A DNA stretch of 62,764 nt from Bacteroidota bacterium (GTDB lineage Bacteria > Bacteroidota > Bacteroidia > Bacteroidales > UBA4417), in NCBI GenBank assembly GCA_013376995.1, contig JACAAZ010000009.1:128813-191576 (forward strand), in the 5' to 3' direction. Positions within the stretch are counted from its first letter, which is position 1, and the number at the start of each line of letters is the position of its first letter. The notes under the pieces were generated by a model, which saw nothing but the letters and a program-made list of their open reading frames with translations, searched no databases and was not told the DNA's origin. Made by a program: the position numbers and the translations under genes. This document shows, piece after piece, positions 1,900 to 17,459 of this stretch.

Positions 1900-4800
1900 T
1901 TATTTCGAATAATCGAGGTCAGCTAGCCTTTTGTAAGAATTGTATCTCCATTTGGCATTTGCTTCAGCGGCTTCAAACAATTCAATTGCTTCGGCCGGGA
2001 ATGATTTCATGAGGGAAGTATAGCGAACCTCTGATTTGAGGAAATCCTGGAACTTGCCGAAATCGGGTTCTTTTGAATCCAACTGGAAGGGGTTTTTGCC
2101 TTCCACTTCCAACATAGGATTGAACCGGTAATTAGCCCAATAACCTGCTTCAACAGCCTTTGCCTGCTGATCCTGTGCTTTTTCCATGCCTGCATGCAAA
2201 CCATGATTGATACAAGTTGAATAAGCAATAATGATCGATGGTCCATGATAAGCTTCAGCTTCACGCAATGCTTTGAGGAATTGAGTCTGATTGGCTCCCA
2301 TAGCGACCTGTGCAACATAAACATAACCATAGCTCATGGCCATCATGCCCAGGTCTTTTTTCCTTACTCGCTTTCCGGAAGCAGCAAATTTAGCCACAGC
2401 ACCTACTGGAGTAGACTTGGAAGCCTGTCCGCCGGTATTTGAATATACTTCAGTATCGAGAACCAGCACATTTACATCTTCTCCCGAAGCCAGGACGTGA
2501 TCCAATCCACCGTAACCAATATCATAAGCCCAGCCATCTCCACCGAACATCCATACCGATTTCTTAATGAAATACTGCTTCAGGGCCAATAATTCCTTGC
2601 AAAGATTATCGCCGCATTTCTCAAGCAAGGGGATCAATTTATCACTGGCAGTTTTTGACTGCTGTGCATTTTCCTTACCAGCGAGCCAATCGTTGCAAGC
2701 TACTTTCAACTCATCAGAATAAGACCCATTGACTATACCCTGAATCCTTTCTGCAAGGCGCGAACGAAGTTTTCCAACGCCAAGGGCCATGCCTAGCCCA
2801 TACTCAGCATTGTCTTCGAAGAGTGAGTTTGCCCAAGCCGGGCCACAACCCTCTGCATTCACAGTATAAGGCGTGGAAGGAGCTGATCCACCATAGATGG
2901 AAGAACAACCCGTAGCATTCGCAACCATCATTCGATCACCGTAAAGCTGGGTGATAAGTTTAATGTAAGGAGTTTCTCCACAGCCTGCACATGCACCTGA
3001 AAACTCAAATAAAGGCTGAGCAAACTGGCTATTCTTGATATTTTGTTCCTTTGGCGCAAGCGTATCTTTATAGGTAACATTAGCTGCCACATATTCCCAA
3101 TTCTTGATCTCTTTTTCCTGTGAGTCAAGAGGTTTCATAACCAGGGCTTTTACTTTGGAAGGACAAACATCGGCGCAGTTCCCGCAACCAGTGCAATCAA
3201 GCGGGCTTAACTGTATACGGAACTGAAGACCTTCGAAGGTCTTGGGAATCGCTTTCAATGTTGCCGTATCAGCTGAGAATCCCTTCATTTCCGTTTCGTT
3301 AAGAAGGAATGGACGGATAGCAGCGTGAGGACAAACAAAAGCACATTGATTACATTGGATACAATTTTCAGATTGCCATTCAGGAACGTTAACGGCTATA
3401 CCACGCTTTTCATAAGCGGTAGTACCAGCAGGGAAAGTTCCATCTTCCCGGCCTTGGAAAGCGCTGACAGGAAGATCATCACCGCGCATGGCATTGATAG
3501 GCTCAACAACATTTTTGATGAAGTCAGGAATATTGCGGGAGTCCTTTTCCTTGCCAACAGTAATATTCTTCCATTCGGAAGGGATCTCAACCTTTTCTAC
3601 TTCTGTTCCTTTATTAATGGCTTCTATATTCATATTGACCACCTCTTCACCCTTACGGCCAAATGACTTCTTAACAGCATTTTTCATCTCAGTAAGGGCC
3701 AGTTCATATGGGATGACGCCGGAGATTTTAAAGAAAGCAGCCTGAGTAATGGTGTTGGTACGATTTCCAAGCCCGATTTCTTCAGCAATGCGGGTTGCAT
3801 TGATGATATAGAAGTTGATTTCTTTTTCAGCCAGGTATTTCTTCATTGAGTCTGGAAGACGTTTCTTTGTTTCTTCAGCATCCCAGATGCTATTAAGAAG
3901 GAAAGTGCCATTTTTCTTCAACCCTTTTAAAAGGTCGTATTTTGTAAGATAAGCAGGAACATGGCATGCAACGAAATCAGGAGTATTAACGAGGTAAGGT
4001 GAGCGGATAGGTTTATCACCGAAGCGCAGGTGGGAAGTAGTTACACCTCCGGATTTCTTTGAATCATATGCAAAATAAGCCTGAGCATATTTATCAGTTG
4101 TATCACCGATAATTTTGATGGAATTTTTGTTAGCTCCGACTGTACCATCAGAACCTATTCCATAAAATTTAGCCTGGAAAGTTCCTTTATCGGCTAGGTC
4201 GATTTCAGGTAACAATGGCAGGGAGGTGAAAGTAACATCGTCAACAATACCAACGGTAAAATGGTTTTTAGGCTCATTCATTTTCAGGTTGTCAAACACT
4301 GAAATGATCATGGCCGGTGTAGTATCCTTTGAACTCAGTCCATAACGTCCATTGATGATTAACGGGCGATTTTCCTGTTCGTAGAAAATTTCCTTTACGT
4401 CCAGGTATAAAGGATCACCATTAGCTCCGGGTTCCTTGGTACGGTCAAGGACACAGATACGTTTTACGCTCTTTGGGATAACCTTGAGGAAATATTTAGG
4501 AGAGAAAGGGCGATAAAGGTGAACCGCAACAAGTCCCAGTTTGTCACCCTGGGCATTCTTGTAATCAATCACTTCTTTCAATGTTTCAGTGATCGACCCC
4601 ATTGCAATTACAATATTTTCAGCATCAGCTGCACCATAATAAGTAAATGGATGGTATTCACGGCCTGTAGTTTTTGAAATCTGCTGCATATACCCTTCAA
4701 CAATGTCAGGAACATTGTTATAGAAAGGATTGGCAGCTTCACGGCTCTGGAAATATATATCCGGATTTTGAGCAGTACCCCTGGTAACAGGATGCTCAGG

Positions 4801-5433
4801 ATTTAAGGCCTTATCACGAAATTGTTGCAAGGAATCCCAGTCAATGAGTTTAGCCATATCCTCGGTTGAAGGATATTCTACTTTCTGTATCTCATGGGAA
4901 GTGCGGAATCCATCGAAGAAATGAAGGAAAGGAACCCTTGACTTGATAGCAGCTAAGTGAGCAATACCGGCAATATCCATGATCTCCTGGACACTGCCCG
5001 TGGCAAGCATTGCGAAACCAGTCTGGCGTGTTGAATAAACATCAGAATGATCTCCAAAAATAGAAAGAGCCTGTGCTGCAAGGCTTCTGGCAGAAACATG
5101 GAAAACTCCGGGTAATAATTCACCGGCAATCTTGTACATGTTTGGTATCATTAACAGCAATCCCTGTGAGGCCGTGTATGTGGTGGTGAGGGCTCCTGCT
5201 TGCAGGGAACCATGGACAGCACCAGATGCTCCACCTTCACTTTGCATTTCAACTACCCTGACAGTTTCACCGAAAATGTTCTTTTTCCCGTTGGCAGCCC
5301 ATTCATCAACGTATTCAGCCATTGTAGAAGAAGGTGTGATAGGATATATGGCTGCTACTTCACTGAACATATAAGCGATATGCGCGGCAGCATAATTACC
5401 GTCGCAGGTCAGGAATTTGTTTTTACTCGTCAT
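1900..5433 (-). CDS. nifJ: Pyruvate:ferredoxin (flavodoxin) oxidoreductase
   Basis: This enzyme converts pyruvate and CoA to acetyl-CoA and CO2, passing electrons to ferredoxin or flavodoxin in the cytoplasm; it is a hallmark of anaerobic carbon metabolism. The 1177-aa length matches the single-chain fused form. Visible in order are the N-terminal pyrimidine-binding domain (YPITPSSTMAE), the central gamma-type domain, two 4Fe-4S motifs (CIQCNQCAFVCP near residue 690 and CTGCGNCADVCP near 746), the CAGCGETPY cysteines near 816 that belong to the third cluster, and the TPP site GDGWAYDIGYGG near 966 with NTGGQASKSTP. It is transcribed alone, with its own promoter and terminator. Confidence 0.97.
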   Translation of the reverse strand: MTSKNKFLTCDGNYAAAHIAYMFSEVAAIYPITPSSTMAEYVDEWAANGKKNIFGETVRVVEMQSEGGASGAVHGSLQAGALTTTYTASQGLLLMIPNMYKIAGELLPGVFHVSARSLAAQALSIFGDHSDVYSTRQTGFAMLATGSVQEIMDIAGIAHLAAIKSRVPFLHFFDGFRTSHEIQKVEYPSTEDMAKLIDWDSLQQFRDKALNPEHPVTRGTAQNPDIYFQSREAANPFYNNVPDIVEGYMQQISKTTGREYHPFTYYGAADAENIVIAMGSITETLKEVIDYKNAQGDKLGLVAVHLYRPFSPKYFLKVIPKSVKRICVLDRTKEPGANGDPLYLDVKEIFYEQENRPLIINGRYGLSSKDTTPAMIISVFDNLKMNEPKNHFTVGIVDDVTFTSLPLLPEIDLADKGTFQAKFYGIGSDGTVGANKNSIKIIGDTTDKYAQAYFAYDSKKSGGVTTSHLRFGDKPIRSPYLVNTPDFVACHVPAYLTKYDLLKGLKKNGTFLLNSIWDAEETKKRLPDSMKKYLAEKEINFYIINATRIAEEIGLGNRTNTITQAAFFKISGVIPYELALTEMKNAVKKSFGRKGEEVVNMNIEAINKGTEVEKVEIPSEWKNITVGKEKDSRNIPDFIKNVVEPINAMRGDDLPVSAFQGREDGTFPAGTTAYEKRGIAVNVPEWQSENCIQCNQCAFVCPHAAIRPFLLNETEMKGFSADTATLKAIPKTFEGLQFRIQLSPLDCTGCGNCADVCPSKVKALVMKPLDSQEKEIKNWEYVAANVTYKDTLAPKEQNIKNSQFAQPLFEFSGACAGCGETPYIKLITQLYGDRMMVANATGCSSIYGGSAPSTPYTVNAEGCGPAWANSLFEDNAEYGLGMALGVGKLRSRLAERIQGIVNGSYSDELKVACNDWLAGKENAQQSKTASDKLIPLLEKCGDNLCKELLALKQYFIKKSVWMFGGDGWAYDIGYGGLDHVLASGEDVNVLVLDTEVYSNTGGQASKSTPVGAVAKFAASGKRVRKKDLGMMAMSYGYVYVAQVAMGANQTQFLKALREAEAYHGPSIIIAYSTCINHGLHAGMEKAQDQQAKAVEAGYWANYRFNPMLEVEGKNPFQLDSKEPDFGKFQDFLKSEVRYTSLMKSFPAEAIELFEAAEANAKWRYNSYKRLADLDYSK

Positions 5434-5798: not shown

Positions 5799-6797
5799 AT
5801 GACTGATCTTTCAACAACCTACATGGGGCTACAGCTGAAAAACCCAATTATTGTCGGCGCTAGCAGCATGTCCTCTGATCTTACAATGCTAAAACGTCTT
5901 GAGCAGGCTGGTGCTGCAGCAATTGTTTACAAAACCCTGTTTGAAGAGCAAATCCACCTTGAGAGCGCTCAAATGGATGATGAAATGAGTTCTTTTGGTG
6001 AAATGAATGCTGAAATGATCAGCCTCCATCCGAAATTGCAACACGCAGGTGCAGAAGTTCATCTTGCCGGTTTCCGTAAAGCTAAAGATACACTGTCAAT
6101 TCCACTTATTGCAAGTCTTAACTGCCTCGAAGATGAAACATGGATGGAGTATGCACGCTTGCTGGAAAAAGCAGGAGCTGACGGCTTAGAACTTAACTTC
6201 TTTTATGTTCCACGTGATTTTGAGCTCGACGGCCACAGCATTGAAGAACATCAACTGGATCTCCTTCGTCTGGTAAAAAGCAAGGTTACCATACCAGTTA
6301 GCGTCAAACTAAGTTCATTTTATTCAAATCCGCTCAATATCATCTCCCGTTTAGATAAATCAGGGGCTAATGCAGTAATCCTGTTCAACAGGCTTTTCGA
6401 ACCGGAAATCAATACAGATGACATGAAACACATTGCCCCATTTAACCTCAGCCATGAAGGTGACTACCGGCTGGTACTTCGTTATTCGGGATTGCTTTAT
6501 AAACAAATCAAGGGATCGATCTGTGCAAGTACTGGTATTTACAATGGCAATGACGTTATCAAAGTCCTTATTGCTGGAGCTGACTGCGTGCAGATTGTAA
6601 GTACACTCTATAAACATAAGCCGGAGTATATTGCAACTATGCTAGCTGACATGGAAGACTGGATGAGCAGCAAGGGATTTAATTCCATTGGTGAATTCAG
6701 GGGAAAATTATCAAAAGCCAGTGTTAAAGATCCGTTCATTTATAAAAGAGCTCAATATATTGACCTGTTGCTTGGTTCAGATCAACTGGTTAAATAA
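5799..6797 (+). CDS. Dihydroorotate dehydrogenase-like flavoprotein
   Basis: An FMN-type TIM-barrel protein of the dihydroorotate dehydrogenase / PreA superfamily, 332 aa. The start MTDLSTTYMGLQLKNPIIVG is typical of class 1 enzymes, and the phosphate-loop region near residues 235-255 (CASTGIYNGND, LIAGADCVQIVST) is recognisable. The usual active-site loop of the form NxSCP is replaced by ELNFFYVP near residue 140, so the catalytic cysteine of class 1 enzymes is missing. It may act on another pyrimidine-like substrate or be a distinct oxidoreductase; the substrate is unknown. An AGGAG sequence sits 8 bases before the ATG, unusual for this phylum, and supports the start. Confidence 0.85.
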   Translation: MTDLSTTYMGLQLKNPIIVGASSMSSDLTMLKRLEQAGAAAIVYKTLFEEQIHLESAQMDDEMSSFGEMNAEMISLHPKLQHAGAEVHLAGFRKAKDTLSIPLIASLNCLEDETWMEYARLLEKAGADGLELNFFYVPRDFELDGHSIEEHQLDLLRLVKSKVTIPVSVKLSSFYSNPLNIISRLDKSGANAVILFNRLFEPEINTDDMKHIAPFNLSHEGDYRLVLRYSGLLYKQIKGSICASTGIYNGNDVIKVLIAGADCVQIVSTLYKHKPEYIATMLADMEDWMSSKGFNSIGEFRGKLSKASVKDPFIYKRAQYIDLLLGSDQLVK

Positions 6798-6877: not shown

Positions 6878-8353
6878 ATGAAAAAGGCAGGCTATCTTTT
6901 TTGTAAAGTTTCAGTTGCATTCCTTCTAATTCTAATTTTTAATTCCACTCCTGCGAAATGCCAGTTCTATATGTGGAACCCGCAGAAAGCGCTTACCGAC
7001 TCCGCTGCTGATAACATCAATCCAACTATTGCATTTTACTATGGCAGCGATAACCTGGAACATAGCATATTATTCTGGGAACGATCCACAGACCTAACGA
7101 GTACTTCTATCTGGTACAAATGCCTCGATGGTGGAAACCCGCAGGAACCGACAGAACTTATTGCATCGCCTGGTGTTCACTTTACAAATCCAAAGGTTGT
7201 AGTATTATCCAATTCTATACCTGCAGCGGATAGTTCATTCATGCTGTTTTTTGAAAGCGATGTAAATGGAGACAAGGATCTGTACTCAATGAAGTATTAC
7301 AACAATGGCAGCTTTACAGCGCCTCAGCTGTTTTCCGGTCTTCCTGGCGATGACAAAAACCTGACTTTGGTTTGGGGATATTCAATTTTTGCAGTCTGGG
7401 AAAACCAAGGCAGGATACTGAAGTCTGACTGGGATTATATGCAGAATTCATTCTCAGCTCCGGAGATCATGTCGACAGAAGGCTCACATGACCCAACCGG
7501 CTCTGAAATGAATATTTACTGGATAAAGGATACTCTTAGCGGCAGTAAAGTAGTCTATCTGAAACGGGAATATATATCGGGGAATTGGATTTATACAGGC
7601 CCCTATGACCTGGAAAACGAAGGTACAAATTCAAACCTCGAAGCCTGTAAAGGCTTTTTCATGTTTGGGAGCCAGGACTATACAGTATGGCAGAATACCC
7701 AAAGCCTATCTCCAACGCAGATCAGGTTTGCCTTTAACAATTCACCCATTCATGAAGTATTGGATCTTGGTTCTCCGAACTTTAACTATTCATCTCCTGA
7801 TGTCATGGATTTCCCCATGATTATCAAAATGCCGACATTCCTTGCTTTTGTGACCGATTCTCTGGGAAATGACGAGGTAATGGTTAACTCAGGATATAGT
7901 TTTGGATTAGATAATCCTACAAACCTTTCAAATTATGAAGGGCCTGACCGGAATCCACAATTTTTCGGGACAGTCAGTGCGTATATATTCCAGGCAAACC
8001 TTCTTTGGGAGTCGCTCAGGGATGGCCATTGGACGATATTCTACTCACATTACGATATGACTATCGGCTTGCAGAATGATCTGTCTGGTAAATCGTTAGA
8101 GATTTCTCCAAACCCATCATCAGAAGTTTCCCATATTTCACTTCCCGCGAATTCGAGAGGATCATTGAATATCTATAATTCATTCCAGATACTTGTTAAA
8201 TCTATAAGAATCCCTGGAAATGGCATTGAAGCAATAAAGGAGATCGGTTGGGATGGCATGGATGATCAGGGTAATAAAGTTCCGGCCGGAGCTTACATTA
8301 TCAGGTATGTTAGTGATAATGGTGCGGTTTCAGCAAAGTTGATAAGGTATTAA
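6878..8353 (+). CDS. Secreted protein with T9SS sorting domain
   Basis: A 491-aa protein with a clear signal peptide (KK then a hydrophobic stretch FCKVSVAFLLILIFN, residues 2-25). The body is rich in Asp, Ser, Trp and Tyr and repeatedly resembles beta-propeller blades (for example LLWESLRDGHWTIFYSHYD). The last ~85 residues start with SPNPSSEVSHISL and contain GWDGMDDQGNKVPAGAYIIRY, a FlgD-like/T9SS type A C-terminal domain. It is therefore predicted to cross the outer membrane by T9SS and to be surface-bound or released. No enzyme motif was recognised. Confidence 0.85.
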   Translation: MKKAGYLFCKVSVAFLLILIFNSTPAKCQFYMWNPQKALTDSAADNINPTIAFYYGSDNLEHSILFWERSTDLTSTSIWYKCLDGGNPQEPTELIASPGVHFTNPKVVVLSNSIPAADSSFMLFFESDVNGDKDLYSMKYYNNGSFTAPQLFSGLPGDDKNLTLVWGYSIFAVWENQGRILKSDWDYMQNSFSAPEIMSTEGSHDPTGSEMNIYWIKDTLSGSKVVYLKREYISGNWIYTGPYDLENEGTNSNLEACKGFFMFGSQDYTVWQNTQSLSPTQIRFAFNNSPIHEVLDLGSPNFNYSSPDVMDFPMIIKMPTFLAFVTDSLGNDEVMVNSGYSFGLDNPTNLSNYEGPDRNPQFFGTVSAYIFQANLLWESLRDGHWTIFYSHYDMTIGLQNDLSGKSLEISPNPSSEVSHISLPANSRGSLNIYNSFQILVKSIRIPGNGIEAIKEIGWDGMDDQGNKVPAGAYIIRYVSDNGAVSAKLIRY

Positions 8354-8496
8354 ATTAGCTTTAATTTCAGGGGGAGGAAAAGTGGACTGCAACAAAAAAA
8401 TGTAAATTGCTGTATAATTTACTAGCACTCAGAACAATAATGACCCTAATCACAAATTATCTGTTAGTTATGAACACATACCTCAAGCTTACAAGT

Positions 8497-9417
8497 ATGA
8501 GAAAACACTTATCTTATTTATTACTGATCACAATATCAGTTATTTATAATTCCTGCAAAAAAGATGAATCCACCGGCAATCAAGTTTCAGCTCGGGATAA
8601 AGTCCTTAATGAATATACTGCCAACTTCCTGGGTTCTGATGTTACGGATGCTGTCTGGACTGGCAGTACTGCATCCTGTGATGAAGGTGGCTATTCGGCA
8701 GATGCTGAAAGCAAGACACTTCAACGGATAAATTATTTCAGAAGAATGGCCGGTGTATGGGATAGCATAACCTTTGATCCGGTTAAGAGTACAAAATGTC
8801 AGAAAGCAGCACTTATGATGCTGGCAAATAATACGCTGAATCATCATCCGCCAACCACCTGGTCGTGCTATTCAGCTGATGGTGCTGAAGCTGCCGGGAA
8901 GTCAAACCTTGCTCTTGGTGCCAACTCGACTGATGCCATCAGCCTATACATGCAGGATCCGGGTTCGTCAAATGTTGACCTGGGGCACAGAAGATGGTTG
9001 CTCTATTCAAGGGCCGGTGTGCTAGGGGCCGGTTCTACCAGTGCATCCCAATGTTTATGGGTAATAGGAGGCAACAGGACACCCGATACATTGCCAGAGT
9101 TCATTGCCTGGCCCCCCAAAGGATTTGTCCCTGCCCCTCTAATCTATAGCCGCTGGTCGTTTGCAATTCCCAATGCTGATTTCTCAACTGCCACCCTCGG
9201 TATGACCGATGGCTCCGGTGCATCGGTAACATGTAAAATAATTTCCAATACAGTTACCATTTACGGTGATAATACTATCGCCTGGGAGCCAAGCGGGATG
9301 AAAACCAATAGTGCATCAGATGAGGTTTATCATATTAATGTCGCTAATGTGCTTGTTGATGGTATTGCAAGGAGTTACAACTACGATGTAACCATAATCC
9401 AACCAGGGAGCAGGTAA
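8497..9417 (+). CDS. CAP (SCP/PR-1-like) domain lipoprotein
   Basis: The chosen ATG gives MRKHLSYLLLITISVIYNSC, a lipoprotein signal with the lipid-accepting cysteine at residue 20; the open frame extends 30 codons further upstream without a signal-like sequence. The mature part is a CAP domain: RINYFRRMAGV, a histidine-rich LNHHPPTTWSC and the LGHRRWLL segment are the usual cavity motifs. Bacterial CAP proteins are extracytoplasmic, and their activity is generally unknown. The protein is about 306 aa, and its C-terminal 100 residues look like an added beta-sandwich. Confidence 0.85.
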   Translation: MRKHLSYLLLITISVIYNSCKKDESTGNQVSARDKVLNEYTANFLGSDVTDAVWTGSTASCDEGGYSADAESKTLQRINYFRRMAGVWDSITFDPVKSTKCQKAALMMLANNTLNHHPPTTWSCYSADGAEAAGKSNLALGANSTDAISLYMQDPGSSNVDLGHRRWLLYSRAGVLGAGSTSASQCLWVIGGNRTPDTLPEFIAWPPKGFVPAPLIYSRWSFAIPNADFSTATLGMTDGSGASVTCKIISNTVTIYGDNTIAWEPSGMKTNSASDEVYHINVANVLVDGIARSYNYDVTIIQPGSR

Positions 9418-9837: not shown

Positions 9838-9871
9838 AAAAAAAAAGACCGGCTATTACTAGCCGATCTTT
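9838..9871 (-). terminator. Terminator of the second TPR anti-sigma-like gene
   Basis: AAAGA-C-CGGCTA (9844-9855) pairs with TAGCCG-A-TCTTT (9860-9871) with one mismatch. On the minus strand it is followed by a run of Ts (A-run 9838-9846 on the plus strand), 28 bases after the stop codon. Confidence 0.8.
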
Positions 9872-9898: not shown

Positions 9899-10651
9899 TT
9901 ATTTCAGTTTCTTCAAGATTTTGACTGCATCTTTCTGATGGATGTTTTCATCATCTGCAGCGATCTTTTCGAACTGAGCTTTAGCTGTGCTGATCTTGTT
10001 GTCTTTCAGGAAGCAGAGGCCAAGGTACCATTGAGCATGCTCAACATAAAGGTTTTGGTCGTCTGCAATAATGTGGTTGAAAGCCTTTTCTGCCTGGGCA
10101 TAATTCTCATTTTCGATATTTGAGATCCCATAGTAGAACCAGCATGCAATGTTTCCATTATCCTTTGAAAGGATAGTGTTGAATAATTTTGCGGCCATTA
10201 GGTAATCCTTAGCCTGGAACTTGATCACCGCTTCGACGATGTTTCCATCACCGGCACGGGTTACGTTTACAAGGTTATCGGCTGAGTAGTATTCCTTGAA
10301 CAAAGTGTCATTGGAACTACCCCGTGGCACGCTGAAATATAGTGTTGAACCAAGAGCAGCAAGAAGGACAAAGGATGCAGCAGCATACCAGAACTTCTTG
10401 AAAGTCATATGGACAACCTTTACTTCTTGTTGTACAGCCCTGTTTTCCCTGTAGGCAACGAGCAATTTTTTCCTGAAATCGATGATGTCATCCCTTTTGA
10501 GGGCAGCATCAATGCTATGGGAAAATTCTAGTTCACCTGCCAATTCAGGATTGGAGGAAACATCTCTTTGAAAATTTTCCCGCTCGGCAGATAACATCTC
10601 CCCCGAAAGAAACTGCTCGATACTAGCTGAATGTTTGAAACTTGTCTTCAT
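9899..10651 (-). CDS. Membrane TPR protein, anti-sigma-like (paralogue 2)
   Basis: A 250-aa protein. Residues 1-75 (HSASIEQFLSGEMLSAERE, NPELAGELEFSHSID) resemble the cytoplasmic domain of anti-sigma factors without zinc ligands. One membrane helix follows near residues 86-108 (FWYAAASFVLLAALGSTLYF), then a periplasmic tail of about three TPR-like helical pairs (AAKLFNTILSKDNGNIACWFYYGISNIENENY begins them). It is the same length as the protein at 10882-11634 and very similar throughout. It has no sigma gene of its own: upstream lies only a promoter copy and ~100 bp of leftover sequence. Role as an anti-sigma factor is inferred from its twin. Confidence 0.8.
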   Translation of the reverse strand: MKTSFKHSASIEQFLSGEMLSAERENFQRDVSSNPELAGELEFSHSIDAALKRDDIIDFRKKLLVAYRENRAVQQEVKVVHMTFKKFWYAAASFVLLAALGSTLYFSVPRGSSNDTLFKEYYSADNLVNVTRAGDGNIVEAVIKFQAKDYLMAAKLFNTILSKDNGNIACWFYYGISNIENENYAQAEKAFNHIIADDQNLYVEHAQWYLGLCFLKDNKISTAKAQFEKIAADDENIHQKDAVKILKKLK

Positions 10652-10754: not shown

Positions 10755-10802
10755 GATCATCAGAACGTATATAATCCATAAATAAGAAAAAGGTAATACG
10801 GG
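10755..10802 (-). promoter_or_regulatory. ECF-type promoter element, copy A
   Basis: Read on the minus strand: CGTATTACCTTTTT, then a short spacer, TATGGATTATATACGTTCTG and ATGATC. It matches copy B (before the sigma gene) and copy C (before the surface-protein gene) at the same internal spacing. It presumably drives the second anti-sigma-like gene. Confidence 0.7.
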
Positions 10803-10812
10803 TTTTTGAAAA

Positions 10813-10853
10813 AAAATGAAAAAAAATAAGGCTGTCGATAAATGACAGCCTTA
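10813..10853 (-). terminator. Terminator of the sigma/anti-sigma operon
   Basis: TAAGGCTGTC (10827-10836) pairs perfectly with GACAGCCTTA (10844-10853). On the minus strand the stem is followed by a T-rich run (A-rich 10813-10826 on the plus strand). It lies 28 bases past the stop codon of the gene at 10882-11634. Confidence 0.88.
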
Positions 10854-10881
10854 GTATTTTGATTTTCAGCAAAAAAATATG

Positions 10882-11634
10882 CTAATCCAGTTTCCTGAGT
10901 ATTCGTATAGCGTCTTTCTGATGATAGTTATCTGGATCGGCTGCTATTGATTTGAACTGTTCAGTAGCTTTTTTCACCTGGTTATGTTTCAGGAAACAAA
11001 GGCCCAGGTACCATTGGGCATGCTCTACATATAGATTCTGATCGTTAGTGATAATGTAGTTAAACGCTTTTTCTGCCTGGTCATAATTCTCATTTTCTAT
11101 ACTAGAGATGCCGTAATAAAACCAGCAGGCGATATTCCCATTATCCCTTTCAACTATATTATGAAAGAGTTTAGCTGCCATAACATAGTCCTTTTCCTGG
11201 AACTTGATAACGGCTTCAACAATATTAACATCTCCGGCCCTCGTAACATCTACAAGGTTATCTGCAGAATAGTATTCCTTAAATATGGTATCATTAGGAT
11301 TTCCGCGCGGAACACTGAAATATAAGGTAGCTCCCAGGCCTGCAAGCAGGAGGAATGAGGCTGCAGCATACCATAGCCTTCTTATGTTAAGTTGTATTAC
11401 CGGGGTTTCCTGGGGGGCTTTCTTATTGTCCTTGAAAGCCACCAGGAGTTTCTTCCTGAAATCGATGATATCATCCCTGCGCAGAGCTTCATCTATAGTT
11501 CTGGAAAGGTTTAATTCTCCGGCTAATTCCGGATTCCGGGCTACCTCTCGTTCAAAACTGAGCCTTTCGGCGGGAAGCATCTCGCCTGAAAGGAACTGCT
11601 CAATGCTGGCAGAGTGTTTGAAACTATTCTTCAT
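10882..11634 (-). CDS. Membrane TPR protein, candidate anti-sigma factor (paralogue 1)
   Basis: A 250-aa protein beginning MKNSFKHSASIEQFLSGEML; an in-frame start 12 codons earlier is less likely because the paralogue begins at the matching MKTSFKHS. It has an anti-sigma-like N-terminal domain, one membrane helix near residues 85-107 and TPR-like repeats in the C-terminal half. The ATG overlaps the end of the ECF sigma gene by 11 bases, implying translational coupling. In Bacteroidota the gene directly after an ECF sigma gene is commonly its membrane anti-sigma factor; that role is inferred here, since no zinc motif supports it. Confidence 0.85.
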   Translation of the reverse strand: MKNSFKHSASIEQFLSGEMLPAERLSFEREVARNPELAGELNLSRTIDEALRRDDIIDFRKKLLVAFKDNKKAPQETPVIQLNIRRLWYAAASFLLLAGLGATLYFSVPRGNPNDTIFKEYYSADNLVDVTRAGDVNIVEAVIKFQEKDYVMAAKLFHNIVERDNGNIACWFYYGISSIENENYDQAEKAFNYIITNDQNLYVEHAQWYLGLCFLKHNQVKKATEQFKSIAADPDNYHQKDAIRILRKLD

Positions 11635-12208
11635 ACCTAAAAAATTTTTGACACCTGGGGTCATTTGCAATTCTTTTCTTCAACTCTTCCTTGCAAAGGT
11701 ACTTGCGGGTTTTTGCATACTTTTCAGTCTTAAATCCCATGATTGTTGCAATCTCCCGCAATGGTACGTCTTTCATGAATAACCGCAAAACTTTTTGACA
11801 ATCTTCATGAAGGGACAAAAAATGCATCTGCACCAGCCTTTGCATTTCAATTTGCTCATTTGAAACCTCTTTCAGGATATCAGCCGGTAGGTCAAGATAT
11901 TCCTCCACATCAGTAAGTTTATCGAAAATAGCTTTCCGTTTATTTAACTTTTGCAGCCATAGGTTCCTGCATATTGAATACAGAAATGTTTTAAAAGAAC
12001 TTGTAAGTGTAAGTTGATTTTCACTGATTTTCTTGTACACAATGATAAGGCCGTCCTGAAAAACGTCCTCCGCATCTTCATCAGAACCAGTATTTTCATT
12101 TACAAGGTATTTTATCAATGGAAAAAACTCCCTGTAAACGAAACTGATAATGTAGTCGCTACGCAGTCTTAGTCCTTCAACTATTGCTTCATCAGAGTAG
12201 TGGATCAT
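11624..12208 (-). CDS. ECF RNA polymerase sigma factor
   Basis: A 194-aa sigma-70-family factor of the extracytoplasmic function class. Region 2 is seen at about residues 20-85 (SDEDAEDVFQDGLIIVYKK, then FKTFLYSICRNLWLQKL) and region 4 at about 130-180 (HEDCQKVLRLF, LREIATIMGFK, KTRKYLCKEELKKRI). Regions 1 and 3 are absent, as expected. It is the first gene of an operon with the membrane TPR protein. Its start codon lies at the edge of promoter element copy B, so the leader is very short; the same element elsewhere suggests that the factor controls its own gene. Confidence 0.93.
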   Translation of the reverse strand: MIHYSDEAIVEGLRLRSDYIISFVYREFFPLIKYLVNENTGSDEDAEDVFQDGLIIVYKKISENQLTLTSSFKTFLYSICRNLWLQKLNKRKAIFDKLTDVEEYLDLPADILKEVSNEQIEMQRLVQMHFLSLHEDCQKVLRLFMKDVPLREIATIMGFKTEKYAKTRKYLCKEELKKRIANDPRCQKFFRYEE

Positions 12209-12250
12209 CAGAACGTATTATTATCCAGATTATCAAAAAAGGTAATACGG
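12209..12250 (-). promoter_or_regulatory. ECF-type promoter element, copy B (autoregulation)
   Basis: On the minus strand: CGTATTACCTTTTT, then TGATAATCTGGATAATAATA and CGTTCTG directly before the ATG. The first 29 bases differ from copy C at only two positions. Position before the sigma operon suggests autoregulation. Confidence 0.75.
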
Positions 12251-12486
12251 ATTATCAACTTATTTAGTTCACAATCGATTAACTCGTAGTTGTCTGTTTT
12301 TTAGGTTATTATGTCTAGAACTGCTTGTGAAGTTGAAGTTCACAACCATTTGTTAATAACTTTTAGTACAAAAGGACATAAACTCTTGAGCATTTTTTTC
12401 ATCTGCACCTATAAAATTTTTGAAGTTGATCAATTGAATTCACAATTGACAATACAGATACGCTTACTAAAAAAAACAACAAATTA
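12251..12486. other. Divergent intergenic region
   Basis: An A+T-rich spacer between promoter copies B (minus) and C (plus). It contains the palindromic stretch CAATTGAATTCACAATTG around 12431 but no recognisable gene, terminator or RNA. Confidence 0.4.
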
Positions 12487-12530
12487 CGTATTACCTTTTT
12501 GAATAATCTGGATAAAAGTAATAAATAGTA
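12487..12530 (+). promoter_or_regulatory. ECF-type promoter element, copy C
   Basis: CGTATTACCTTTTT (12487-12500) followed by GAATAATCTGGATAAAAGTA on the plus strand. The element matches copies A and B but faces the opposite way, toward the surface-protein gene 157 bases downstream. The leader between is A-rich with repeated AACAAGCAAAA-like words. Confidence 0.72.
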
Positions 12531-12686: not shown

Positions 12687-13898
12687 ATGAAAACGTTATT
12701 TACAATTTTACTTGCAGTCATTTTTGGACAGATAGTATCTGCCGGAACAGTATCTGGAGTAGTTCTTTATCAGGGGGATTCAACACGACCCATTAATAGT
12801 GTTACTGTAGCCTTGAAGGGTATTGATAATTCAACGATCGCAACTTATCTTACCGGACCTGATGGTGTTTACGTATTCAATGATGTACCCGCCGGATCGT
12901 ATACTCTTCGCGGCGTTAAGACATTGCCGGGCGGTGGTGTCACAATGCTGGATGCTACATTAGTATTCCTTCATATCCTGGGATTTTATCCGTTTGATGC
13001 AATCCAAAGCCTGGCAGCTGACGTAAACGGCTCCGGAACCATTACACTTACGGACTATTCTATGATCATGTACCATGTATTGAGGCATTCTCCATTTCCA
13101 GTAGGTGAATGGGTATTCCTTACTGAAACTTTTACAGTAACAGATCTTAAAGATTCTCATCCCGGTGGTCTGACTGGTTCATCAGCCGGTGACGTAGGAG
13201 GTGTATTTGTACCCGGTACCAGGAATCTGCCTGCTTACCCGATGACAAATGCCGGAACCATCAAGGTTTCTTCAGAAGAGCCGTTCAATGTTTCCATCAA
13301 AGCTACTCAGCCAATGTCAATAAGTGGCACAGGGCTTATAATCAATTATCCTTCTGACATTGTGACAATTCAATCAGTAGAATTCCCAATGTCCAACTTT
13401 GAATATGTAATTGATGGAGATCAAATCCGTCTCATCTGGAATGACCCGGAAGGATCAAACCTGAACCTGAAACCCGGATCAGAACTCATTACTATCCATT
13501 GCACAGCCAATGGCAACTTTACCGAGGGAATGAAAGCAAGCTTTACTCTTGACGGTAACACAAGTATCGTAAGCAACACTTACACAGAAATTACAGATGC
13601 CGGTTTACAGGCACCTACAATTGAATACACTAAGCCTTCATTAAGGCTAAGCAATTACCCCAACCCTTTCGGTGCCAGCACAACTCTGGCATATTACCTG
13701 CCAAGGAATGGGTCTGTTACCTTAACCTTGTATGATCAAAGCGGCCAGGTCGTGAGAGAATACAACCAGGGTGAACAAACCGAAGGATATCATTCAATGT
13801 TAGTAGAAGGAAGCGGATTGACCCCGGGTAGCTATTTCTGCAAGATCTCCCTGTCAGGTAGCGAGACTCAAACTATCAGATTGTTAAAATCGCTTTAA
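12687..13898 (+). CDS. Surface protein with dockerin- and cohesin-like domains and T9SS tail
   Basis: A 403-aa secreted protein. The ATG chosen gives the signal peptide MKTLFTILLAVIFGQIVSAG; a GTG seven codons upstream is less likely. Then come a carboxypeptidase-regulatory-like beta-sandwich (TVSGVVLYQGDSTRP, residues ~20-80), a dockerin-like pair (LDATLVFLHILG and DVNGSGTITLTDYSMIMYHV, ~90-140, the second with a calcium-loop pattern), a cohesin-like beta domain (IINYPSDIVTIQSVEFP, ~210-300) and a T9SS C-terminal domain (YPNPFGASTTLAYYLP to the end). It sits opposite the ECF operon and shares its promoter element, so it is a likely sigma target. Confidence 0.85.
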   Translation: MKTLFTILLAVIFGQIVSAGTVSGVVLYQGDSTRPINSVTVALKGIDNSTIATYLTGPDGVYVFNDVPAGSYTLRGVKTLPGGGVTMLDATLVFLHILGFYPFDAIQSLAADVNGSGTITLTDYSMIMYHVLRHSPFPVGEWVFLTETFTVTDLKDSHPGGLTGSSAGDVGGVFVPGTRNLPAYPMTNAGTIKVSSEEPFNVSIKATQPMSISGTGLIINYPSDIVTIQSVEFPMSNFEYVIDGDQIRLIWNDPEGSNLNLKPGSELITIHCTANGNFTEGMKASFTLDGNTSIVSNTYTEITDAGLQAPTIEYTKPSLRLSNYPNPFGASTTLAYYLPRNGSVTLTLYDQSGQVVREYNQGEQTEGYHSMLVEGSGLTPGSYFCKISLSGSETQTIRLLKSL

Positions 13899-13913: not shown

Positions 13914-13948
13914 AAAAAAAAAGGGGACTAATTGTCCCCTTTTTTTTT
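13914..13948 (+). terminator. Terminator of the surface-protein gene
   Basis: GGGGAC (13923-13928) pairs with GTCCCC (13934-13939), framed by an A-run on the left and TTTTTTTTT (13940-13948) on the right. It lies 16 bases past the stop codon and separates the surface protein from the CHAT gene. Confidence 0.9.
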
Positions 13949-14105: not shown

Positions 14106-17100
14106 GTGCAATACCGGCACAAAAATATTGCCAGTAATTTCTTGATCAACCTGGTGCATATTTTAAGCCTGGCTTTAGTAACACTCCCCCTACTCCTCTT
14201 TACTCACTGCAGTTCTCGAGACCAGAAGAAAACAATTGGAAAGACCCCCGGCGATCTGGAACTTGCTGAATCATGCAAACTCCGCGACTCTTACGACAGC
14301 GCCATCGCTTATTACCATCACTTCAGTGATCAATGCTATAAAACCAAATCCTGGGATAACTGGGGTAAGGGTATAAATGGCATGATCGACTGTTACAGGT
14401 CGAAAGGAGATCTTTCTTCTGCTATAAATCTTCTGAATAAATCCGACAGCCTTGCCAGGAATAGCATAAGTGTCAGAAGTGAACTATTCGCTAGTTTAAT
14501 TCACAAGAAAGCTATACTGTTTTCTGAAAAAGGAGAATATGAACGGTCGAATGAGTATTTCCTCCAAACCATAAGCCTGAGAGATAATCTGAAACTCTCC
14601 AGGGATACAACTCTTGCATTATCGTATAATGGTTTAGGCACCAATTTTCTCTACCTGGGAAAATATGATGAAGCCTACGACTATTATGAAAAAGCGATTA
14701 ATAATTATGAAAAACTGGGCCTGACCAAGACTGCTGATTATGCGATGTTCAATCTAAATGCTGGTATTATTCATGCTATTAGAGGGGATTATCCTAAGGC
14801 ACAATTACACTTTGATCTTTCCCTTTCAATTAACAAAGCTATTCTTGATAAGAACGACCCTAAACTAGCTCTAGTCTATCTCAACCTGGGCAGATTCTTC
14901 AGCATGACAGGAAATGATGAGAAAGCGCTGGAATTGCTTACTCAGTCGGAAGATATTTTCAAACTGAAGGATCGAAAATCCTCTAAATTGGCTTCTTTAT
15001 ACCTTAATATAGGATCAATATATGTGAATAAAGCCAATTATGAAAAAGCATTGTCCTATTACAACAAAGCTCTGGCTTTGATGCAAGCCAATACTAACGG
15101 AAATCCATCCGATTTGCTGACCGTTCTGCTTAACCTTGGATTCATTTACGAGAAAAAAGGAGATTTTGCAGCTGCAAATAAATACTACCAGGAAGGCCTT
15201 CAAAAAGGAGATAAATTCCCAAACTCAGTCAAGGTTCTGAGAGGACTTGCAAATATAAACACGATTCTGGGCAAGAAAACTGAAGCAACTGCTTATTATG
15301 ACCTTTCTGTTAAACAGAGCATAGAACTCTGTGGGCCCAATCATCCTGAAACAGGCCTGACATATTTAAAGTATGGGGAATTTTGTTCAATCAATAATGA
15401 AAAACAAAGAGCTATTGATTTCCTCCACAAAGGCATAGATATCTACAAGCTTGCCTATGGAGAAAAGAGCCGGGATCTTGGATACGCATATTTACAGCTT
15501 GCAAATTACTTTTCGAGAATACACGAATATTCCAAAGCGCTTCCAGAATATCAGAAGGCACTGATAGCTACATTCCAGAACTTCAATGATGTTAACATCC
15601 TGAAGAATCCCAAACCTGATATGGGTGACTTAAGCTATTATCAACTAAACATATTAACGGAGAAAGCATTCGCATTTTACTCATTATACCAGCATGATCC
15701 TTCAAAAAAGGAATTCCTGCAGGCCAGTGCAGATACATATACAGAAGCCATCACTTTCATGGAATTATTGCGTTCAACTTACCAGGAAGAAGATAGCAAA
15801 CTGATGATAGCCGGAAGTGAAAAAAACACTGTCCTGAATGCAATCCGCACTCAGGTTGACTTATACAGGAATGCTCAACAGAACGACGCTTTTGAAAAAG
15901 CCTTTATGTATGCTGAAAAGGGTAAATCGTCTGTTCTCATGTCATACCTGAGGGATATGGAAGCCAAGGACCTCGGGAAAATCCCTGACAAATTACAAAA
16001 GCTGGATAACCAACTAAAAACGGAGATATCTTTTTACAACAAATTAATCTTTGATGAAACTTCCAGGAAAGATGCCAATCAATCAAAGATCAACCTCTGG
16101 AATAACACTGTATTTGAGCTAAGCCGGAAACACGACAGCCTTATTTCGGTAATTGAAAAAAGCTATCCTGCATACTACAACTTAAAATATGACAATTCAG
16201 TCATTACACTGAAATCACTAAAGGAAAGAATTGCACCAAACCAGGCAATCCTTGAATACACGCTTGCAGACACAACCCTGTATCTTTTCCTTATAGTAAA
16301 AAATGATGCTAAATTGTTTGTCACTCCCGTTGATACCGGGTTCCTTACCAATATTGCAACCTTGCGCGAAATGCTCACCGGGAAGTCCTTCAACAACTAC
16401 TCCCCTGAAGATTTTCACTCTTTTACTGATGCTTCCTACTCCCTATATAAGGTTCTGCTGGAGCCTGTTCAGAGCCTAATCCAAAACAAGGAACTTATCA
16501 TCATCCCGGATGCCGAACTGGGGTACCTGTCATTTGATATCCTGCTCACACATAAACCCGGTCCTAAGGCAAAAGGTTATAGGGGACTGCCCTACCTGAT
16601 CAAGGAAGCACCCATCAGTTATGCCCCTTCAGCAACAGCTTTATTTGAAGGATTCAAAAATCCTATTGCTCCTAAAAACCATAAAGTGCTGGCATTTGCT
16701 CCTTCCTATGAGAATGTCAGGAATGTCAAGATAAAAGAATTGTTGAGAGGTAAGACCTCTTATCCTGATTACCTGATGCCTATCCCTGGTGCCCAGATTG
16801 AAGTAAAAAACCTCAAGAAAATATTCAGCAGCAAGGTTTTTGATGGAAGTGATGCTACAGAATCTAATTTTAAGAAGTATGCTGGAAATTACTCCATCCT
16901 GCATCTGGCCATGCACACCATAATTAACAATAATAATCCTCTATATTCAAAGCTGGTATTCTATCGCAACGGTGACACGCTTGAGGATGGGCTTCTTAAT
17001 ACTTCTGAATTATTCAGTATGCAGTTAAATGCCGACCTGGCAGTTCTGAGTGCCTGTAATACCGGGACCGGTAAACTTGAAAGAGGTGAAGGTATTATGA

Positions 17101-17459
17101 GTTTGGCCAGGGGATTCTTTTATGCAGGTGTACCCAGCATTATCATGACTTCCTGGGCTGTGGAGGATAATTCCGGAGTTGATCTGATGACTTCATTTTA
17201 CAAATACCTTGCTGAAGGCAAAGCAAAGAATGAAGCTTTAAGGCTAGCAAAACTTGATTACCTTGAAAACTCAGACCAATTAAAATCGCATCCTCATTTC
17301 TGGGCGGCATATATGAATATCGGCGATATCAGTCCTATCCAAAACCTGAAATCTCCTACGCCAGTCTATCTCATCTTTATTTTCAGCATAGCCGGGTTCC
17401 TGGTCCTGGCAGGTGGATTCCTCTATTTCTGGAAGAAGGAACATCGCTTTGGCAAGTAG
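14106..17459 (+). CDS. TPR-CHAT caspase-like protease, membrane-anchored
   Basis: A 1117-aa protein. The N-terminus has a hydrophobic segment ending LLLFTHC, which fits a lipoprotein signal or a membrane anchor. Residues ~45-520 are about ten TPR repeats of kinesin-light-chain style. The C-terminal half is a CHAT peptidase domain (~700-1070): the catalytic pair is H937 in LHLAMHT and C984 in LSACNTGTG, followed by GEGIMSLARGFFYAG and SWAVED. A membrane helix near 1080-1100 (FIFSIAGFLVLAGGFLYF) precedes a short basic tail. The start is GTG. CHAT proteases cut specific partner proteins; the substrate is unknown, but the nearby sigma/anti-sigma genes are an obvious candidate. Confidence 0.9.
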   Translation: MQYRHKNIASNFLINLVHILSLALVTLPLLLFTHCSSRDQKKTIGKTPGDLELAESCKLRDSYDSAIAYYHHFSDQCYKTKSWDNWGKGINGMIDCYRSKGDLSSAINLLNKSDSLARNSISVRSELFASLIHKKAILFSEKGEYERSNEYFLQTISLRDNLKLSRDTTLALSYNGLGTNFLYLGKYDEAYDYYEKAINNYEKLGLTKTADYAMFNLNAGIIHAIRGDYPKAQLHFDLSLSINKAILDKNDPKLALVYLNLGRFFSMTGNDEKALELLTQSEDIFKLKDRKSSKLASLYLNIGSIYVNKANYEKALSYYNKALALMQANTNGNPSDLLTVLLNLGFIYEKKGDFAAANKYYQEGLQKGDKFPNSVKVLRGLANINTILGKKTEATAYYDLSVKQSIELCGPNHPETGLTYLKYGEFCSINNEKQRAIDFLHKGIDIYKLAYGEKSRDLGYAYLQLANYFSRIHEYSKALPEYQKALIATFQNFNDVNILKNPKPDMGDLSYYQLNILTEKAFAFYSLYQHDPSKKEFLQASADTYTEAITFMELLRSTYQEEDSKLMIAGSEKNTVLNAIRTQVDLYRNAQQNDAFEKAFMYAEKGKSSVLMSYLRDMEAKDLGKIPDKLQKLDNQLKTEISFYNKLIFDETSRKDANQSKINLWNNTVFELSRKHDSLISVIEKSYPAYYNLKYDNSVITLKSLKERIAPNQAILEYTLADTTLYLFLIVKNDAKLFVTPVDTGFLTNIATLREMLTGKSFNNYSPEDFHSFTDASYSLYKVLLEPVQSLIQNKELIIIPDAELGYLSFDILLTHKPGPKAKGYRGLPYLIKEAPISYAPSATALFEGFKNPIAPKNHKVLAFAPSYENVRNVKIKELLRGKTSYPDYLMPIPGAQIEVKNLKKIFSSKVFDGSDATESNFKKYAGNYSILHLAMHTIINNNNPLYSKLVFYRNGDTLEDGLLNTSELFSMQLNADLAVLSACNTGTGKLERGEGIMSLARGFFYAGVPSIIMTSWAVEDNSGVDLMTSFYKYLAEGKAKNEALRLAKLDYLENSDQLKSHPHFWAAYMNIGDISPIQNLKSPTPVYLIFIFSIAGFLVLAGGFLYFWKKEHRFGK

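Follow-up and report, generated by a model that had tools for sequence, protein, structure and literature searches.

The question raised by this locus is whether three closely matching DNA elements, clustered around a gene for an extracytoplasmic function (ECF) sigma factor, are promoters read by that sigma factor. The locus lies in a stretch of 62,764 nucleotides (nt) from a Bacteroidota bacterium of the order Bacteroidales (contig JACAAZ010000009.1, positions 128,813 to 191,576, forward strand), referred to here at its full length as the window. A first-pass annotation made from the sequence alone had described the three elements, placed them before a second anti-sigma-like gene (copy A), the sigma gene (copy B) and a surface-protein gene (copy C), and proposed them as the promoter motif of a candidate ECF sigma regulon. 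The features concerned, in window coordinates, are:

9899..10651, minus strand: likely anti-sigma 2, an intact open reading frame (ORF) of 250 amino acids (aa) without a sigma gene of its own, sister of anti-sigma 1
10772..10800, minus strand: copy A, predicted ECF promoter facing anti-sigma 2 (exact pattern match; alignment with copy B)
10882..11634, minus strand: likely anti-sigma 1, built of an N-terminal helical domain, a single helix predicted to be of membrane length and a C-terminal TPR part
11624..12208, minus strand: ECF sigma factor gene, 194 aa (TIGR02937, Sigma70_r2)
12221..12249, minus strand: copy B, predicted ECF promoter (exact match; -35 GTATTACC plus T tract; -10 box GGATAA), with 12 nt between its end and the sigma start codon
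12487..12515, plus strand: copy C, predicted ECF promoter facing the surface-protein gene (exact match; 171 nt before the ATG)
12687..13898, plus strand: gene for a surface protein that combines CarboxypepD_reg-like and dockerin-like domains with a C-terminal sorting domain for type IX secretion

A window scan with the exact pattern CGTATTACCTTTTT-N6-TMTGGATWA returned three matches, which were the three elements on the strands first described, while the chance expectation was 0.00 (mean of 100 shuffles of the window). The 14-mer CGTATTACCTTTTT had three copies in the 5.05-Mb genome, every one within the window, and reversed-pattern controls gave 0. Sequence comparison showed that copies B and C differ at two of 29 positions, as had been noted, and that together they form a 34-nt inverted repeat spanning the divergent region with 88% complementarity. 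The likeness between copies A and B continues past the elements, via GATCATCAGAACGTAT, as far as the first sigma codons. The gene that each copy faces was also as first assigned.

The sigma protein matched TIGR02937 over residues 25-179 with 58.7 bits (cut-off 42.9) and Sigma70_r2 with 42.8 bits (cut-off 24). In the Pfam scan Sigma70_r2 alone passed 0.001 and region 4 was unmatched on its own; the TIGR02937 match identified the protein as a small sigma with regions 2 and 4 only, as is characteristic of ECF (group 4 sigma-70) factors. The gene also appears to stand behind its own bipartite -35/-10 element of fixed spacing, as is common among autoregulated ECF factors. SigW (5wuq) was the only solved structure matched by the sigma profile at E ≤ 0.001, and the NCBIfam SigW model scored 46.4 bits, below its cut-off of 209.

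The element is bipartite, with TATTAC and GGATWA separated by 15 nt. This gap between the halves was found in 58 pairs and any other gap at most three times. All 80 sigma relatives in the named assemblies were examined, and each of the 33 orthologue loci carried an element with at most one mismatch at the sigma start. These orthologues are L130-L161 and L175; L161 has 51% identity, and the remaining 32 are all the full-length matches that reach at least 54%. The other 47 relatives included five with at most one mismatch (L167, L186, L190, L191 and L200), three with two and 39 with at least four. Alignment of 33 distinct rows gave a motif information of 36.9 bits over 27 columns, with a mean of 0.17 and a maximum of 0.77 bit per column in the flanks, and a column consensus of G-TATTACC-TTTT-T, an A-rich stretch and CYGGATAA. 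Counting the window, 34 rows were compared, and in 30 of them 11 or 12 nt separated the end of the motif from the ATG. Overall, the element is the sole strongly conserved stretch upstream of the sigma orthologues. The element stood directly before the ATG at 13 loci: that of the window, eleven more from the genus and one belonging to a different family of the order. Two of these showed one change in the left box, and the remaining upstream DNA differed between loci. Against these 13 retaining loci, the element was absent or partial at six more distant ones (L017-L022). The layout (TTAC, T tract, 15-nt spacer) is like that of ECF promoters.

A paralogous ECF sigma gene (G000:C40:108555-109112, 49% identity) was found in many of the same assemblies and lacked the element in all 26 assemblies that also hold the orthologue. 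In this paired set (25 pairs plus L154/L207) the orthologue had 0-1 mismatches and the paralogue 4-8. The contrast between the two rests on these paired 26 assemblies; a Fisher test (33 versus 36 loci) was not used, its groups being defined by outcome. None of the loci L207-L209 had a site. L207 matched the query with 60% identity over residues 1-99 only and was 85-89% like L162, L170, L173 and L184, which placed it with the paralogue.

Relatives of the surface-protein gene were usually divergent from the sigma gene and had a site of their own (pattern with SGATWA), with at most one mismatch in 22 of 29 relative ORFs and at most two in 24 of 29. Only five of 54 control ORFs had a site with at most two mismatches, and four of these were second sigma genes and one was another gene (L157:5620-7005). 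The two-sided arrangement is kept in relatives while the intervening DNA differs. Distant surface-gene sites had an altered right arm (CGATTA, TGATTA) and a constant left arm, TATTACC. The surface protein itself matched TIGR04183 with 36.1 bits (cut-off 23), Por_Secre_tail with 27.8 bits (cut-off 27) and Dockerin_1 with 25.9 bits (cut-off 22.9), the Pfam query having begun at 12690, without the Met. An SprA translocon was found in this genome (SprA_N, 533.3 bits), and the protein thus combines the two marks of type IX secretion system (T9SS) cargo, a C-terminal sorting domain and an SprA/Sov translocon encoded in the genome.

The genome scan at fixed spacing that the first-pass annotation had called for was run with TATTACCTTTT-N10-GGATWA on 16 genomes of the genus and gave 59 sites with at most one mismatch versus one for the reversed control. 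Thirty of the genus sites were away from the sigma locus, nine of them in front of a receiver-domain gene, and 27 of the 30 were outside and three inside an ORF of at least 80 aa; by comparison, 85% of window 27-mers were inside such an ORF. At up to two mismatches the same scan gave 194 hits versus 104 controls, so the regulon looks small, and no member was claimed from these hits alone. A scan of the window's own genome with GTATTACC-NN-TTT-N9-SGATWA at up to two mismatches showed no excess (12 hits versus 13 controls). The candidate regulon first put forward is retained, as a small one.

The window's own genome had six sites with at most one mismatch in the genus-wide scan. Its predicted regulon comprises the three window sites, a receiver-domain gene (C10), a DUF5916 gene (C43:23670) and a TPR/PD40 gene (C9). 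The own-genome site G000:C12:293651 was inside a coding frame and was treated as chance. G000:C4:29547 is a weak candidate member, with two mismatches to the scan pattern and a position inside an open frame starting upstream; the gene there scored 21.3 bits for Por_Secre_tail, below the cut-off of 27. The receiver-domain gene (124 aa here) was present in 13 of the 16 genus genomes (E ≤ 1e-35) and had a site at 41-53 nt in nine of 13 orthologues. Of the three genomes lacking a match to this gene, G010 and G012 also yielded no close sigma, and G009 has a completeness of 64%. For the CBM9/DUF5916 gene, a site with at most one mismatch was present in five of 20 matches and with at most two in six of 20. 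No T9SS machinery genes were recognised behind the sites among those downstream proteins that were scanned. Sites of a similar kind were seen by eye before a seemingly very short membrane ORF at L114 (G002) and L122 (G008).

Across 149 genomes of the order, the exact motif was found in nine, with two control hits. It was present in seven of seven genomes with a close sigma (best E ≤ 2.7e-60) versus two of 142 others (Fisher 1.3e-10, at an E-value threshold chosen after the data were seen). Together with the 33 of 33 orthologue loci and the rigid spacing, this co-occurrence within the order supports the first reading of the elements as the promoter motif of the ECF sigma. That choice of threshold is one of several points that weigh against it. 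The two other genomes with exact hits were G061, with only a 40% sigma relative, and G062, with no sigma at E ≤ 1e-30. Sites were present in G003 and G004 with no close sigma found, the sigma locus being cut at a contig end in both, and the site retained in G003 is that of the receiver gene. Of the 35 loci where the anti-sigma gene has a relative, two (L194 and L205, with 4 and 5 mismatches) showed no clear site at the sigma gene. Finally, seven of 29 surface-protein relatives lacked a site with at most one mismatch, and a clear site was missing from four of the 13 orthologues of the receiver gene and from 14 of the 20 DUF5916 matches.

These points have to be set against three other explanations. 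The element could be an operator for a DNA-binding regulator, for example one binding as a dimer to the quasi-symmetric arms ATTACC...GGATAAT, which are spaced by about two helical turns, with transcription from a nearby primary-sigma promoter. The arms are loosely inverted in the consensus of the sigma-gene sites, the sites are near start codons and a receiver-domain protein is a frequent target. However, the T tract stands beside the left arm only and is nearly invariant, and the distant surface-gene sites change the right arm while TATTACC stays fixed, so that the symmetry of the arms is broken. The element also faces the gene and tracks the presence of the sigma gene, and we consider an operator very unlikely. 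It is improbable as well that the paralogous ECF factor, or several ECF factors, share the promoter, so that the regulon would not be the neighbouring sigma's own. The gene of the paralogue has no site in any of the 26 assemblies, and no site with at most one mismatch was found in G010, which has the paralogue and no close sigma or surface-protein gene found, or in G012, in which the best ECF hit was 1.2e-4. Sharing is favoured by G003, which keeps the receiver-gene site with only the paralogue found, but whose locus is truncated by the contig end. Overlapping ECF regulons are also discussed for Flavobacterium psychrophilum in PMC9723704.

That the three copies are mere products of local duplication and inversion without promoter function is barely tenable. 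Copies A and B are clearly of common descent and copies B and C form an inverted repeat, but the element alone is strongly conserved upstream of the sigma orthologues, the two-sided arrangement is kept in relatives with different DNA between, and unlinked sites stand before other genes.

Given the sites, their conservation, spacing and gene-facing placement, their co-occurrence with the sigma gene and the duplication remnant described below, the elements are very probably promoters read by polymerase carrying the ECF sigma encoded at 11624-12208, with an autoregulated sigma gene and a small regulon that would include a T9SS-type surface protein. This is a prediction from comparative sequence analysis, and we infer sigma binding and start sites at the elements, inhibition by the TPR proteins, the topology of these proteins and the existence of a signal. 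The gene for anti-sigma 1 overlaps the sigma stop by 11 nt, and copy B would control both genes jointly, giving a positive loop with built-in negative feedback, while copy C would drive the divergent surface-protein gene.

The origin of copy A was traced by alignment. In an alignment of about 50 nt that runs through the sigma ATGATC, copies A and B scored 55 versus a shuffled maximum of 28, and past ATGATC at copy A no sigma similarity above shuffles was found. Copy A is therefore most readily understood as what remains of a duplicated and otherwise lost sigma gene, namely its promoter and first codons, which now face anti-sigma 2. The first-pass view of copy A as a promoter is upheld, with the refinement that it would be a relic of the duplicated sigma promoter. 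The two anti-sigma proteins share 73% identity, and in a tree the two window genes formed a sister branch (99/99) with that of G014 outside both, which indicates a duplication specific to this lineage or masked by gene conversion. Promoter, sigma and anti-sigma would have been duplicated together and the sigma copy deleted, leaving copy A. Further features bear on this part of the locus:

9844..9871, minus strand: terminator-like hairpin 3' of anti-sigma 2
10755..10770, minus strand: 16-nt block identical to 12203-12218, where the leader of the sigma gene passes into its first codons; read as what is left of a deleted sigma copy
10827..10853, minus strand: terminator-like hairpin 3' of the sigma/anti-sigma 1 unit, upstream of copy A
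13914..13948, unstranded: perfect 15-nt inverted repeat 3' of the surface-protein gene (on the plus strand GGGGAC-loop-GTCCCC, then nine T)

A total of seven terminator-like hairpins were found in the region versus a shuffle mean of 3.8, and the scan listed the 13914..13948 repeat on the minus strand only. Since each anti-sigma gene is followed by a hairpin, and that of anti-sigma 1 separates the first operon from copy A, copy A could plausibly act on its own. It would now drive the second anti-sigma without a sigma gene and should damp the loop. Tandem sigma/anti-sigma cassettes were also observed at L055, L057, L058 and L059 (G007, G013, G008 and G002, respectively), each sigma with a site of 0-2 mismatches. 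These are repeated cassette duplications separate from that of the window; a duplication shared by the window with G002, G007, G008 and G013 was rejected by the tree, short of gene conversion.

The membrane TPR proteins are likely anti-sigma factors. The full model (mean pLDDT 80.2) showed helices at 9-17, 22-34, 36-52 and 55-72 and a long helix at 85-108, followed by the TPR part; the N-domain modelled alone (mean pLDDT 78.6) showed three helices, the last one long. A Foldseek search with the N-domain against 350,542 PDB chains returned just five matches at E-values up to 10, and each comes from one of three sigma/anti-sigma complexes. Two are from the RslA complex (3hug) and may be either partner, two are chains C and D of SigW-RsiW (5wuq), and one is 4nqw_B, from a SigK complex. 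Chains C and D of 5wuq are about 70 aa and were therefore taken as RsiW. The anti-sigma role is weakened by the E-values of these matches (1.7-5.3, none significant alone) and by the fact that some chains may be the sigma partner. Foldseek with the full model returned mostly TPR proteins, with no anti-sigma among the 50 matches listed, and the 17 PDB matches that the N-domain sequence profile had up to E 10 included no anti-sigma. A zf-HC2 match was found in one of 29 anti-sigma relatives (E 3.9e-4). In one relative (L155:3146-4492, L214) sigma and anti-sigma were a single 448-aa ORF behind a conserved site; L155 and L214 are probably one assembly seen twice, and the fusion may be a sequencing error. 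Class I anti-sigma factors (ASDI) are defined in PMC7406223 by an N-terminal domain of four helices with the first three forming a bundle, and the same paper gives an association with the class I anti-sigma domain for only 6% of Bacteroidetes ECFs. Among the papers listed in a literature search, judged by titles and abstract starts, none was on this motif or on such TPR anti-sigmas.

In the proposed mechanism, the membrane-bound anti-sigmas would probably hold the sigma through their N-terminal helical domain until an envelope signal, perhaps sensed by an extracytoplasmic TPR domain, frees it. The freed sigma would then transcribe its own operon, the surface-protein gene and the second anti-sigma gene. 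A more doubtful extension, by analogy with the action proposed for PorA on SigP (see below), is a surface-to-transcription feedback in which the divergent T9SS protein would be both the main output and part of the input, reporting the secretion or surface state to the TPR anti-sigma, and the extra anti-sigmas of duplicated cassettes would tune the threshold. Between the window and G014 (L053) identity was 94.8% for the sigma, 67.1% for the anti-sigma and 64.5% for the surface protein; sensor and cargo diverge quickly, in contrast to the conserved sigma. At the same two loci, part of a large ORF (1900-5433) showed 88.4% and ORF 5799-6797 showed 78.0% identity.

The system is like SigW/RsiW of Bacillus subtilis in that the sigma profile matches SigW and two of the five N-domain Foldseek matches are the small chains of SigW-RsiW. 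As predicted here, SigW/RsiW is an autoregulated sigma/anti-sigma operon in which a T tract follows the -35 box; sigma-W promoters have the boxes TGAAAC/CGTA. It differs from the system described here in its boxes (TATTAC/GGATAA here), in its sensor part (TPR here) and in belonging to a different phylum. SigP of Porphyromonas gingivalis is likewise an ECF factor of the Bacteroidales tied to type IX secretion; in the model proposed in PMC7712824, SigP upregulates its own gene and PorA, a T9SS C-terminal-domain protein, acts upstream. SigP is, however, activated via the two-component system PorXY, whereas an adjacent membrane anti-sigma is predicted here. The SigP target motif proposed in PMC4800418, C(T)AAA(G/C/T)A(T)A(C)T(A/G)A, is unlike the consensus TATTACCTTTT-N10-GGATWA, a comparison of the two motifs made by eye. 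For F. psychrophilum SM6, PMC9723704 suggests ECF-type promoters for several T9SS genes and for one sigma/anti-sigma pair; their -10 box is CGT, in contrast to GGATWA here. The system at this locus is an ECF sigma with its own predicted promoter and is not SigP-like by motif.

Other observations concern the neighbouring genes and a distant sigma relative. Next after the surface-protein gene is a gene for a TPR-CHAT (caspase-like domain) protein of 1117 aa (window 14106-17459), and an ORF of about 1100 aa was seen at this position in seven of nine other genus loci reaching that far and at L064, from another family. On the other side, genes for a FlgD_ig-ended protein and a CAP-domain protein lie at 6878-9417, between ORF 5799-6797 and anti-sigma 2, and are absent at the corresponding place in G014. 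An ECF-like sigma relative (LR756504.1:456071-456628, 27.7% identity, 96% coverage) was also found in a 636-kb uncultured phage record.

To our knowledge, few Bacteroidota ECF factors have a known promoter. With the present analysis one ECF clade gains a precise predicted promoter, for which the paralogue serves as a built-in negative control, together with a regulon predicted to be small and a candidate anti-sigma whose build, with a TPR sensor, is unusual. The copy in which the sigma would have been lost and the promoter kept shows a route by which an orphan anti-sigma gene may arise under the same control.
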